21,247 nucleotides of DNA, taken from a virus. The stretch lies in the IMG/VR virus record IMGVR_UViG_3300027712_000181, positions 1 through 21,247 of that record. One strand, 5' to 3'. How positions within the stretch are numbered: position 1 is the stretch's first letter; every line of letters begins with the position of its first letter. The notes beneath the pieces are model-generated. The model saw only the letters and a list, made by a program, of their open reading frames with translations. It did no database searches and was not told where the DNA came from. The position numbers and the translations under genes were made by a program. Positions 3,987 through 14,229 of this stretch are shown piece after piece.

Positions 3987-4994
3987 TTAGTCTTCAATTT
4001 GCTTTATGATGTCAATAGCTTGCTCAATAATAGATAGTGGCTTAGCATCAATCTTAGTGGTCTTAAATACACCTTCAACGCTGAAACCTTTAAACTCTCC
4101 TGACTTTATAAAGTAATTCCATATATCTTCATTGTCTACTTTATAGCTACCAAACCATGAACCATCTGTTAGCTTCAACCCATCAGGTGCATTTATTCCT
4201 CTTTTACTATCTATAATAAATGATTCAATCATATACACGCCATCAACCATTTTGTTAGGATCGTGCATTTCATTTACCGATTTCGTATTGTTATTTTTAA
4301 AGAACTTATTGCGTATGTTATATATGTCTTCCGCTGTGAATAGTCCATAATATTCGCCTTGTTCATCTTTGCGATAGATCGGCAAATCTGCCACCATTAA
4401 TGCACCGCTTATTATTTTCTTTTCTTTATTAGATGAAAACTTGCTCATCTTTTGGTCAATCTGTTTTAGCTCAACTATAAATTGATTTTCCATTCCGCAC
4501 ATATTGCACTTATAAGGGTCTTCGCCACCATCGCTAATCATCCAAGTATGCCCACAATTAGAACAAGTGATTTTATCCATTACGAACTTGCTACCTATGC
4601 TGCCTAATTCTTTAATGACATCAGCGTTATTATCGTAATGCTTTGTTATGCCTAATGATTTAACCTTTTCAATCTTTGCCTTATTGCTTCCTGTTGCAAA
4701 TACTCTTGATTCAGGAATGCCTAAATCTTTTGCAATTTTAAGCATACCTTGCACATCTTGTCGTGCAGATATAACATAGATTATTGCACCCTTATCAATT
4801 AATTGCTGTGCTAATTCTTGACCCCTTAAAGTTGAAAGTGTGTCATCGAAATCAAACGATATTTTACTTGCTGCGAACGCTTGCCAATTCATCTCGATTG
4901 CAGGATTGTCTACTAATGCAACTGCGGTAACTCCTGCATCATCATCCTCACCAACTACAAATCTATAAATGGGTATTCTCTTATCTATTGCCAT
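3987..4994 (-). CDS. XkdF-like prohead protease with HAD and zinc-ribbon insertions
   Basis: The 335-residue protein begins with an XkdF-type segment (IPIYRFVVGEDDDAGVTAVA, then LVDNPAIEMNW). Residues about 45-130 form a HAD-like phosphatase domain: DFDDTLS (48-54) as motif I, SAR (76-78) as motif II, a Lys-rich stretch, and HYDNNAD (119-125) as motif IV. A zinc ribbon follows with Cys144, Cys147, Cys163 and Cys166. The rest (about 195-312) looks like the protease core, with His244 in NEMHDP and Ser258 in YMIESF as candidate catalytic residues. The expected role is cleavage of scaffold and capsid during head maturation, which fits its place upstream of those genes. The HAD and ribbon domains are extra and unexplained; motif IV has Asn where a second Asp is common. 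Confidence 0.75.
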   Translation of the reverse strand: MAIDKRIPIYRFVVGEDDDAGVTAVALVDNPAIEMNWQAFAASKISFDFDDTLSTLRGQELAQQLIDKGAIIYVISARQDVQGMLKIAKDLGIPESRVFATGSNKAKIEKVKSLGITKHYDNNADVIKELGSIGSKFVMDKITCSNCGHTWMISDGGEDPYKCNMCGMENQFIVELKQIDQKMSKFSSNKEKKIISGALMVADLPIYRKDEQGEYYGLFTAEDIYNIRNKFFKNNNTKSVNEMHDPNKMVDGVYMIESFIIDSKRGINAPDGLKLTDGSWFGSYKVDNEDIWNYFIKSGEFKGFSVEGVFKTTKIDAKPLSIIEQAIDIIKQIED

Positions 4995-12020: not shown

Positions 12021-13235
12021 TTAAATTGAAATTGTTGAATATTTGCCACTTGGTCGGTTATTTAATTTTAAGAGTGCTACATATCTCATAGGGTCAACGC
12101 AATGGTTTAGACTATCTATTGGTTTGCCTGTTAGTTTGCCCTCATTATCTTTCTCCCATGTGTAGCCCCTTAACTCTTTGATTAGATTAGTTGAGTTCTT
12201 TGTAACTTGTATCTCATATCTCTTTAATATGTCAATTCCTATCTTGATACTATCTGCACCTTTAACCGCAGGTCTGACATTGAAACCTTGTAGCCTTAGT
12301 TCTTCTATTGATTTAGGCTCTGCACTATCACAAATCAACTCCTTGCGCCCAAATTGAATTGATTTAAGAAAGTTACCTAAGTCATTATTTGTCATATTAG
12401 TTCGATAGAGTAATTCATCAATGATTAGTTTGCCTTCATACTTATATATCGCTACAAGTGTGCTTGGGTCATTCGTGAAACCAAAGTCCATTCCATGACC
12501 TACTAAGTCGGCTTTCTCTGGGATGGTGTCAATCTGTTTCCATTGGTCAAAAATAACATCTTGCAGGCTTCCGACTTGCCCAAGTCCATATACTTGCCAC
12601 CAATTCGCCCAATAAGTTGAGGTTTTAGCTTTTAGTTCGGCTGCTTCAATATCGTGTATAATTGTTTCGGGTAGTGCTTCATTATCTTTATAAGTCAATA
12701 TAATGTGTTCAGTATCTTCATCATTCATCAATTCGGTATGCGCCCAAAATTCATTGGTAGGGTTAAAGTCTAACCATATCTCGCCACTTGTTCGGACTGC
12801 TAATTGGTGATATGATTCAAATGTTATGTTATTCGCTTCATTAATGTATAGGATGTTTCTTCTTGCACCTCTTAACTTACTTTCCATTTCGGCTGAAAAG
12901 AACTCGATGTATGAACCATTTGCAAAACGATAGGTAAGTAGTGAGCGATTCCAATTCAAATCTGAATAACGACCTGTCCACTCCATTATTTTTAAAAAGT
13001 CTTTCATTGCCCCCCTGCGAAGATGTGGGATGGTTTCTGAAACTACTGATATTTCAAGATGTGGTGTTTTGCTTGCCCTGTCAATTAAGATAGGAAGTAT
13101 TCCAAATGTTTTGCCTGCTGATTAGTCCCCCTTACAATTACTCATAAGGGGATGTTAGGAAGTCCCACCCTGAATGATTTTCTTTCGGGCAGTTAACTTC
13201 AATAATCTATTTATAGCTGTTGTTCTTTTAAACAT
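12021..13235 (-). CDS. Terminase large subunit, frame interrupted by a 39-nt gap in Walker A
   Basis: The frame starts at ATG 13235 (overlapping the HNH stop) and reads MFKRTTAINRLLKLTARKK then IIQGGTS; after 39 nt with two UAA codons it resumes AGKTFGILPILID and runs to 12021. Without the gap the protein is 391 residues. Motifs, numbered without the gap: Walker A GGTSAGKT (23-30), Walker B ILYINEA (115-121), coupling motif WLDFNPT (141-147), and nuclease acidic residues Asp237 (MDFGFTNDP), Asp290 (LICDSAEP) and Asp368 (HCVDPMRY). It would drive DNA packaging and cut concatemers. The first ATG after the gap that begins a long product (13007) omits Walker A, so an active enzyme needs the gap to be bypassed or removed. 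The rest of the gene shows no decay, which argues against an old pseudogene. Confidence 0.85.
13119..13157 (-). other. 39-nt in-frame gap, candidate translational bypass element
   Basis: On the minus strand codon TCC (13160-13158, Ser26) is followed at once by TAA, then a hairpin with a perfect 7-bp stem CCCCTTA (13151-13145) / TAAGGGG (13134-13128) and a 10-nt loop, then ACTAATCA; reading resumes at GCA (13118). The last codon of the gap is TCA, also Ser, so a peptidyl-Ser-tRNA could leave UCC and land on UCA, skipping 36 nt between them. A purine run AAGGGGGA lies just before the landing codon, and the encoded peptide before take-off is strongly basic (KLTARKK). T4 gene 60 has the same parts: matched codons, a stop right after take-off, a gap hairpin and a nascent peptide signal. 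Function here is inferred. Confidence 0.6.
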
Positions 13236-13824: not shown

Positions 13825-14229
13825 TTAATTATCTGGAAAAAGTGGCTGCTCAATATGCCTTACTTCACTCTTATCAGTCAAACCATTTAAACGCTGTGTT
13901 ATGCTTGGATTGTAGATTCCACTCATACCGCCTTCAATCTGGTCGTTTCTAATCATTTTGCGTATCGTGCGACAGATAGGGACATAGTCTGTGTATCTTT
14001 CTTGCTTATTTTCAAAATAGTCGCTTAAATCGCTTATAATATTGTTTTCAAAGCACCATACTTCAAAACCTTCCAATGTCAATGGTCTTTCTTTCTTTCT
14101 GTTTACCTCATCCCCATCCTTACCGACAAAGTCTTGAACTAAAATAGGGTTGCTTTTTACTTTTTGGCGATATGCTTCAAAGTATTCCCACATCTTTTCG
14201 GGTGTTTCAATGTATTTACTCTTTCCCAT
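13825..14229 (-). CDS. Terminase small subunit
   Basis: The 134-residue protein begins MGKSKYIETPEKMWEYFEAY and includes ERPLTLEGFEVWCFE (a likely helix-turn-helix entry, about residues 47-61) and a C-terminal IYNPSITQRLNGLTDKSE. This combination is familiar from Bacteroidota phage DNA-packaging proteins, which recognise the pac/cos region and hand DNA to the large subunit. It lies immediately before the HNH/large terminase genes, as expected. The start follows the methyltransferase stop by one base. Confidence 0.8.
   Translation of the reverse strand: MGKSKYIETPEKMWEYFEAYRQKVKSNPILVQDFVGKDGDEVNRKKERPLTLEGFEVWCFENNIISDLSDYFENKQERYTDYVPICRTIRKMIRNDQIEGGMSGIYNPSITQRLNGLTDKSEVRHIEQPLFPDN

Follow-up and report, generated by a model that had tools for sequence, protein, structure and literature searches.

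How can a phage make its large terminase subunit when the gene is interrupted, inside the Walker A loop, by a stretch that contains stop codons? The question is posed by a 21,247-nt viral contig (IMG/VR record IMGVR_UViG_3300027712_000181, positions 1 to 21,247; this whole stretch is called the window below). Its terL gene lies on the minus strand, begins with an ATG at 13235-13233 and runs for 26 codons up to a UAA at 13157-13155; the terminase frame resumes at GCA GGC AAA ACA (A G K T) from 13118 and stays open down to 12021. A preliminary description of the window had proposed that ribosomes bypass the 39 nt in between, which were said to start with UAA directly after a UCC serine codon, to end with UCA and to restore the frame when deleted. 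We found the gap to be exactly as described, and its removal restores IIQGGTSAGKTFGILP, an exact Walker A motif.

Gene 60 of bacteriophage T4 contains a 50-nt programmed bypass, with the homing-endonuclease gene mobA nearby (PMC5009743, PMC11194080, PMC2988022). Efficient programmed bypassing in phages and bacteria amounts, in the papers we found, essentially to T4 gene 60, to which elements of yeast mitochondria can be added. Here we present a comparative sequence analysis of the terminase gap and its relatives, which leads us to read the 39 nt, with a probability of roughly 0.87, as a programmed ribosomal bypass element carried in a homing-endonuclease cassette, in the style of T4 gene 60 and mobA.

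Results

An intact terminase on both sides of the gap

The loop that the window regains on deletion of the 39 nt is contiguous in the TerL of L043, which is gap-free and 99% identical to it in amino acids, and in 76 other uninterrupted relatives. Two in-frame stops lie within the gap of the window. The window contig carries a single TerL as judged by the Terminase_3C domain, and longer contigs searched for this domain (up to 34 kb) had exactly one in 15 of 16 cases and none in the sixteenth. The stop codon of the HNH ORF that precedes terL, an ORF absent from the preliminary description, overlaps the TerL start, as is typical across loci. The features of the locus are collected in Table 1.

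Table 1. Features of the terL locus in the window (positions are those of the window).
Feature	Position	Strand	Remarks
TerL 5' ORF, 26 codons MFKRTTAINRLLKLTARKKIIQGGTS plus UAA	13155..13235	-	matches the N-terminus of uninterrupted TerL
Putative take-off codon UCC (Ser 26)	13158..13160	-	final P-loop codon ahead of the stop; its landing triplet is cognate
39-nt gap UAACAUCCCCUUAUGAGUAAUUGUAAGGGGGACUAAUCA, untranslated in the bypass reading	13119..13157	-	same in other IMG/VR terL contigs; missing from L043
Hairpin: 10-bp stem CCCCUUAUGA/UUGUAAGGGG (13151-13128) plus closing U-G, GUAA (GNRA) tetraloop	13127..13152	-	fold; compensatory changes
Putative landing triplet UCA (Ser)	13119..13121	-	triplet preceding the resumed frame; ends the gap
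TerL 3' ORF, AGKTFGILP..., 365 aa, RNase H-like nuclease domain	12021..13118	-	Pfam Terminase_3, Terminase_3C
HNH ORF, free-standing, homing-endonuclease-like, 182 aa	13228..13776	-	Pfam NUMOD4 1.9e-12, HNH_3 3.6e-12
Small terminase subunit gene (TerS), GP3_package	13825..14229	-	Pfam 1.2e-10

Downstream of the gap, dN/dS is about 0.02-0.07 in the interrupted pairs with usable dS, the same as in uninterrupted genes; one more distant interrupted pair gave 0.10, and the 3' ORF of the window compared with its near relatives gave 0.015-0.039. The downstream frame is fully kept in 91 of 101 loci, and in the remaining 10 its loss is compatible with the contig ending there. The earlier view that the downstream terminase is intact and under selection is thus borne out, and the decay that would mark a pseudogene, which we looked for, is contradicted by these ratios and by the intact frames.

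The gap itself changes far less than the gene that follows it. Window and L094 are separated by a dS of about 1.1, yet only 1 of the 39 gap positions differs, and L002 and L090 match the window at all 39. The 21 nt upstream of the gap are likewise unchanged between the window and each of these three, whereas beyond the landing codon there are 9-12 changes per 60 nt, as in the rest of the gene. With so sharp a boundary at the landing codon, recent transfer could be part of the reason why close relatives share an identical gap.

A family of gaps at one P-loop site

We collected the family by pattern scans for any GGTS-KTF interruption followed by a translation filter, and added loci reached via the HNH gene. 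Gaps at the P-loop site occur in 135 loci, or 77 unique contexts once duplicates are removed, and comprise 45 distinct versions of 32-45 nt that belong to at least 12 sequence families. All of them hit the same three P-loop codons, with the break following any one of the three codons of S-A-G (or S-S-S), and the frame is restored across every gap even though the host TerLs are diverse. By the codon at the take-off position the gaps fall into serine (16), alanine (22) and glycine (7) tRNA classes. Their lengths are distributed 22/15/8 modulo 3, that is, 23 of the 45 are not divisible by three.

The gap of the window recurs unchanged in more than 10 further IMG/VR terL contigs, and L094 has a 1-nt variant of it; diverged versions of 39 or 40 nt sit at the same codon in L018, L112, L117, L136 and L419. 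As both 39 and 40 nt occur within this class, the reading frame does not dictate gap length. Alignment of related TerLs, as the preliminary description had suggested, therefore finds the gap present, absent (L043) and variable. A stop directly after the take-off codon, as in the window (UAA), had been put forward as an ingredient of the bypass, but as a general feature it finds no support: it occurs in 6 of the 45 gaps, the stop being the second codon in 26 and later or absent in the rest. L344, L375, L388, L395, L398, L419, L436 and L465 have no stop in the first two codons past take-off.

Outside this setting the searches gave no further cases. A pattern for the window-class element written without terminase flanks matched terL only. 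Two interrupted TerLs served as queries against the cultured phages of INPHARED, and the 60 best relatives listed for each run through the P-loop without a gap; among the pattern matches listed for genome contigs, all prophage candidates were chance matches; and 400 genomes from a single Flavobacterium family yielded no real gap. Bacteroidota (Flavobacterium, Elizabethkingia, Bacteroides and others) are the hosts of the nearest cultured relatives, which makes a member of Bacteroidota the probable host of the window phage.

Take-off and landing triplets match in codon register

In 45 of 45 gaps the landing triplet is cognate to the take-off codon, the pairs being UCN/UCN (16), GCN/GCN (16), GGN/GGN (7) and GCN/GUN (6). 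The first two bases thus agree in 39 gaps, and in the 6 that go from GCN to GUN position 2 is pairable by G-U. Of the triplets inside the gaps, no more than 9% would count as cognate. Multiplied together, the chance probabilities of 12 conservative sequence families give 2.8e-13; as each gap had been given at most three placements, we allow a factor of 3 for each and adopt a cautious bound of about 1.5e-7.

Full identity of the two triplets is found in 8 of the 45 gaps. The window is not among them (UCC/UCA), and its third-base mismatch had been seen as a weakness of the bypass model. Across the 45 gaps, take-off and landing triplets are identical at the first codon position in 100%, at the second in 87% (the rest being C to U) and at the third in 18%, the last of which is chance level. 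The bases that adjoin the triplets agree in 13% and 9%, and other flanking positions in 0-49%. Such a pattern fits the signature expected of an anticodon that re-pairs with the wobble base left free, and since the third base agrees at chance level and the first two at 100% and 87%, the UCC/UCA mismatch turns from a weakness into supporting evidence. We considered a target-site duplication, or a recombination or splice repeat, as the origin of the matched ends and rejected it on the ground that the match is confined to bases 1 and 2 and does not extend into the flanks.

Two further regularities were seen at the triplets. In the L347, L356, L377 and L398 groups a GUN landing triplet follows a GCN take-off codon, where tRNA-Ala fits only via a middle G-U pair. 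The third base of alanine and serine take-off codons is mostly a pyrimidine or G and that of the landing triplets mostly A; tRNAs with U34 may hop here from a weak to a strong pairing.

A covarying hairpin just past the take-off codon

The hairpin, first noted as a perfect 7-bp stem, is in fact longer, with 10 bp plus a U-G pair (Table 1). Each of the 45 gaps contains one C-rich/G-rich hairpin, whose stem, with outer pairs counted, starts 4-6 nt past the take-off codon; its C-run begins 5-7 nt past that codon, again in 45 of 45. Stems are 6-11 bp long, mostly 9-11, and the order of the arms is constant, the C-rich arm being 5' and the G-rich arm 3', with the latter 1-10 nt ahead of the landing codon. 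The loops of many members are GNRA or cUUCGg.

Taken singly, the window does not fold remarkably (z of -0.5 against dinucleotide shuffles of the 60-nt region), so the case for structure rests on comparison. Folds of the gaps alone, compared with mononucleotide shuffles, average a z of -5.4 over the families. Relative to the window, L018, L117, L136 and L419 share a compensatory change from A-U to G-C, and the stem of L112 differs by U-G to C-G and G-U to A-U. In the alignment of the window class every cell is paired, with one fully compensated pair and two consistent changes, and that of the alanine class has six doubly changed cells, a number reached in 0 of 500 shuffles; sliding the partners destroys the signal.

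Linkage to HNH endonucleases

Of the 61 unique interrupted loci, 24 have the HNH ORF upstream of the P-loop at a distance of no more than 80 nt; of 64 uninterrupted loci, 2 do (Fisher p=3e-7). For the NUMOD4/HNH family of the window (at least 47% identity) the association is complete, with 36 of 36 loci directly preceding an interrupted terL; 35 of these were detected by script, and L459 was scored by eye because its contig ends early. HNHs at 44% identity or less adjoin an interrupted TerL in 0 of 44 cases, and no comparable gap appeared in those of their contexts that were read. Other HNH subtypes (L018, L442) occupy the same place, each with its own gap.

The distribution of gaps is patchy, with uninterrupted close relatives such as L043 (99% amino acid identity to the window). 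The TerL tree has 13 changes between gap and no gap, at least 8 of which well-supported branches make unavoidable; the trait is thus both gained and lost. Compared with L043, the window has wobble differences in seven successive codons immediately before the insertion, and the roughly 35 nt ahead of them are identical; wobble changes at this place are as expected for co-conversion or an altered nuclease site.

Discussion

Programmed bypassing is the reading best supported by the cognate ends, the covarying hairpin, the selection on the downstream frame, the variation of gap length modulo 3 and the HNH linkage, also because the gap recurs, each contig has one terL and there are close relatives that are uninterrupted. 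A ribosome would translate the 26 codons at the start of terL and stop with peptidyl-tRNA-Ser on UCC. The hairpin, close to the P-site codon, would have to melt for decoding and would refold next to or in the A site, where together with the UAA it would block normal decoding. The tRNA would then release, the mRNA slide and the tRNA re-pair with UCA just past the hairpin, and translation would resume at GCA to give an uninterrupted Walker A, GGTSAGKT. These steps, like the nuclease target and the protection from cutting discussed below, we infer from the architecture of the gaps. Docking of stem-loops in the A site, which blocks tRNA, is documented for other spacings (PMC7282821), and T4 take-off uses an A-site stem-loop (PMC11194080). 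As a speculation, the G-run before the landing triplet may pair with 16S rRNA like the SD-like sequence of T4; such pairing in Bacteroidota-type hosts would be more speculative still.

The main rival to bypassing, and the sole one that also tolerates any gap length, is removal at the level of RNA, in which a tiny intron or hairpin would be excised from the mRNA and religated by an unidentified activity. A compact hairpin suits it, as does the linkage to HNH genes, a kind that is often intron-borne. We nevertheless regard it as unlikely: at 32-45 nt the gaps are far below the size of any self-splicing intron, they have no Rfam match at the gathering threshold or at E<=1, no splice motif is common to the families, the HNH lies outside the gap, and excision gives no reason for ends that match in codon register with tolerance at the wobble base and C/U freedom at the second. 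Group I and group II introns in particular were discarded, given the gap length of 32-45 nt and no Rfam match to a catalytic core.

The remaining alternatives are less likely still. An essential gene that has a stop codon in its P-loop might be one broken by a disabling insert, its dead TerL being replaced by another terminase or supplied in trans, but the dN/dS of 0.02-0.07 in many interrupted pairs, the frame kept in 91 of 101 loci and the single TerL on each of 15 contigs of up to 34 kb make this very improbable. Homing endonucleases do split genes (PMC2988022), and a 26-residue piece might assemble with an internally started one as in split T4-like genes; we give this little credence, since the break falls within the P-loop, no start lies near the resumed codon (the first listed ATG, at 13007, is past Walker A) and in a split gene neither cognate ends nor covariation of the hairpin would be selected. 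Stop readthrough or simple frameshifting, with the gap decoded as extra residues, would be compatible with the 39 in-frame nucleotides of the window but is barely plausible in view of the two in-frame stops, of other gaps of 40, 41, 43, 44 nt and so on that are not divisible by three, and of the more than 10 foreign residues that would end up within Walker A. Every gap-bearing record is an uncultured viral contig, which might raise the suspicion of an assembly or sequencing artefact, an origin named in the preliminary description; it is scarcely tenable for an element that is found in many separate IMG/VR records, in 77 unique contexts and in 45 distinct versions with covariation.

Read as bypass elements, the P-loop gaps share much with T4 gene 60: a stretch without coding function close to the 5' end of a phage gene, a few dozen codons in; take-off and landing triplets that match, with a stop after take-off in the window; a hairpin at take-off, whose cUUCGg loop in T4 (L524) recurs in one class here; an SD-like G-run ahead of landing; and an HNH homing endonuclease on the 5' side. 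The T4 mobA/gene 60 pair is reportedly a mobile cassette as well, as Bonocora et al. are said to have described in 2011. The differences are equally plain. The gaps lie in a terminase P-loop and span 32-45 rather than 50 nt, they use tRNA-Ser and tRNA-Ala besides tRNA-Gly, their landing triplets mostly differ at the wobble base, the A-site stop is not universal, and there are many versions instead of one. The T4 hairpin contains the take-off codon, whereas here it begins 4-6 nt past it. T4 also has a strong nascent-peptide requirement, and here nothing of the kind can be separated from the ordinary TerL N-terminus; the basic stretch before take-off that had been offered as evidence is equally basic in uninterrupted relatives, so no nascent-peptide signal can be claimed. 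One might go further and propose, at about even odds in our estimate, a simple and portable form of bypassing, spread by endonucleases aimed at the terminase P-loop, in which a hairpin 4-6 nt past the P-site codon would suffice without a nascent-peptide signal of the T4 type, and in which Ser, Ala and Gly tRNAs would re-pair directly past the hairpin with only two good pairs or with a G-U.

Other systems resemble the P-loop gaps in part. The byps of Magnusiomyces capitatus mitochondria (PMC5009743, PMC8211752) are likewise many short bypassed elements that are possibly mobile, but they occur in many genes of a eukaryotic mitochondrion, and the P-loop gaps occupy one site in one phage gene and are HNH-linked. 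The bypass proposed for Streptomyces phage Hau3 (PMC5009743) also concerns a terminase gene and is tied to the rare UUA codon of the host and to KGWG. All 45 take-off codons here are UCN, GCN or GGN, never UUA, and a UUA-dependent bypass of the Hau3 type was thereby ruled out. In the tape-measure gene of Corndog (PMC4351075) an HNH again lies beside a phage gene and bypassing was one possibility offered, the alternative there being a non-AUG start, but that case has no defined hairpin gap.

The P-loop gap family is described nowhere in the open literature that we searched (subscription papers and preprints were outside reach), and the best explanation of its features is a new and much larger family of bypass elements with an architecture unlike that of T4 gene 60. 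If this is true, the ribosome hop of T4 would be just one of the many occurrences of a mobile trick, and an essential catalytic loop could be interrupted and still work. Dozens of natural variants in tRNA, gap length and hairpin would allow the minimal rules of take-off and landing to be read from evolution, and the idea that bypass elements arise within homing-endonuclease cassettes would gain support. Terminase is a widely used phage marker gene, and gene callers will split or miss the gap-bearing copies.

A route of spread can be sketched along the same lines. The HNH nuclease would cut the conserved P-loop DNA of a gap-free terL, and repair would copy the HNH gene, the first terL codons and the gap into the cut gene. 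The gap would then shield its carrier from cutting and bypassing would spare the essential gene; the HNH could later be lost and the gap stay.

The terminase neighbourhood also holds some unusual arrangements. In L136, ACA stands in place of the TerL start codon just after the HNH stop (at about 4070-4080; junction gggagtacatttaaaag), because the HNH ends in EYI and not in EYV. In L036 and L044, HNH ORFs lie 19-37 nt ahead of a gap-free TerL P-loop (GGSSAGKT); these are possibly recent invaders or cassettes without a bypass. A roughly 140-aa ORF unlike HNH (MSKQEVEQIKNKLNNLVRLNF...) takes the place of the HNH between TerS and the interrupted TerL of L083. Finally, a different NUMOD4/HNH ORF in L087 (1046-1564) is fused to the first TerS residues (MGKNKYIETPEKMW...) and followed by another TerS ORF, which is a separate homing event in TerS.
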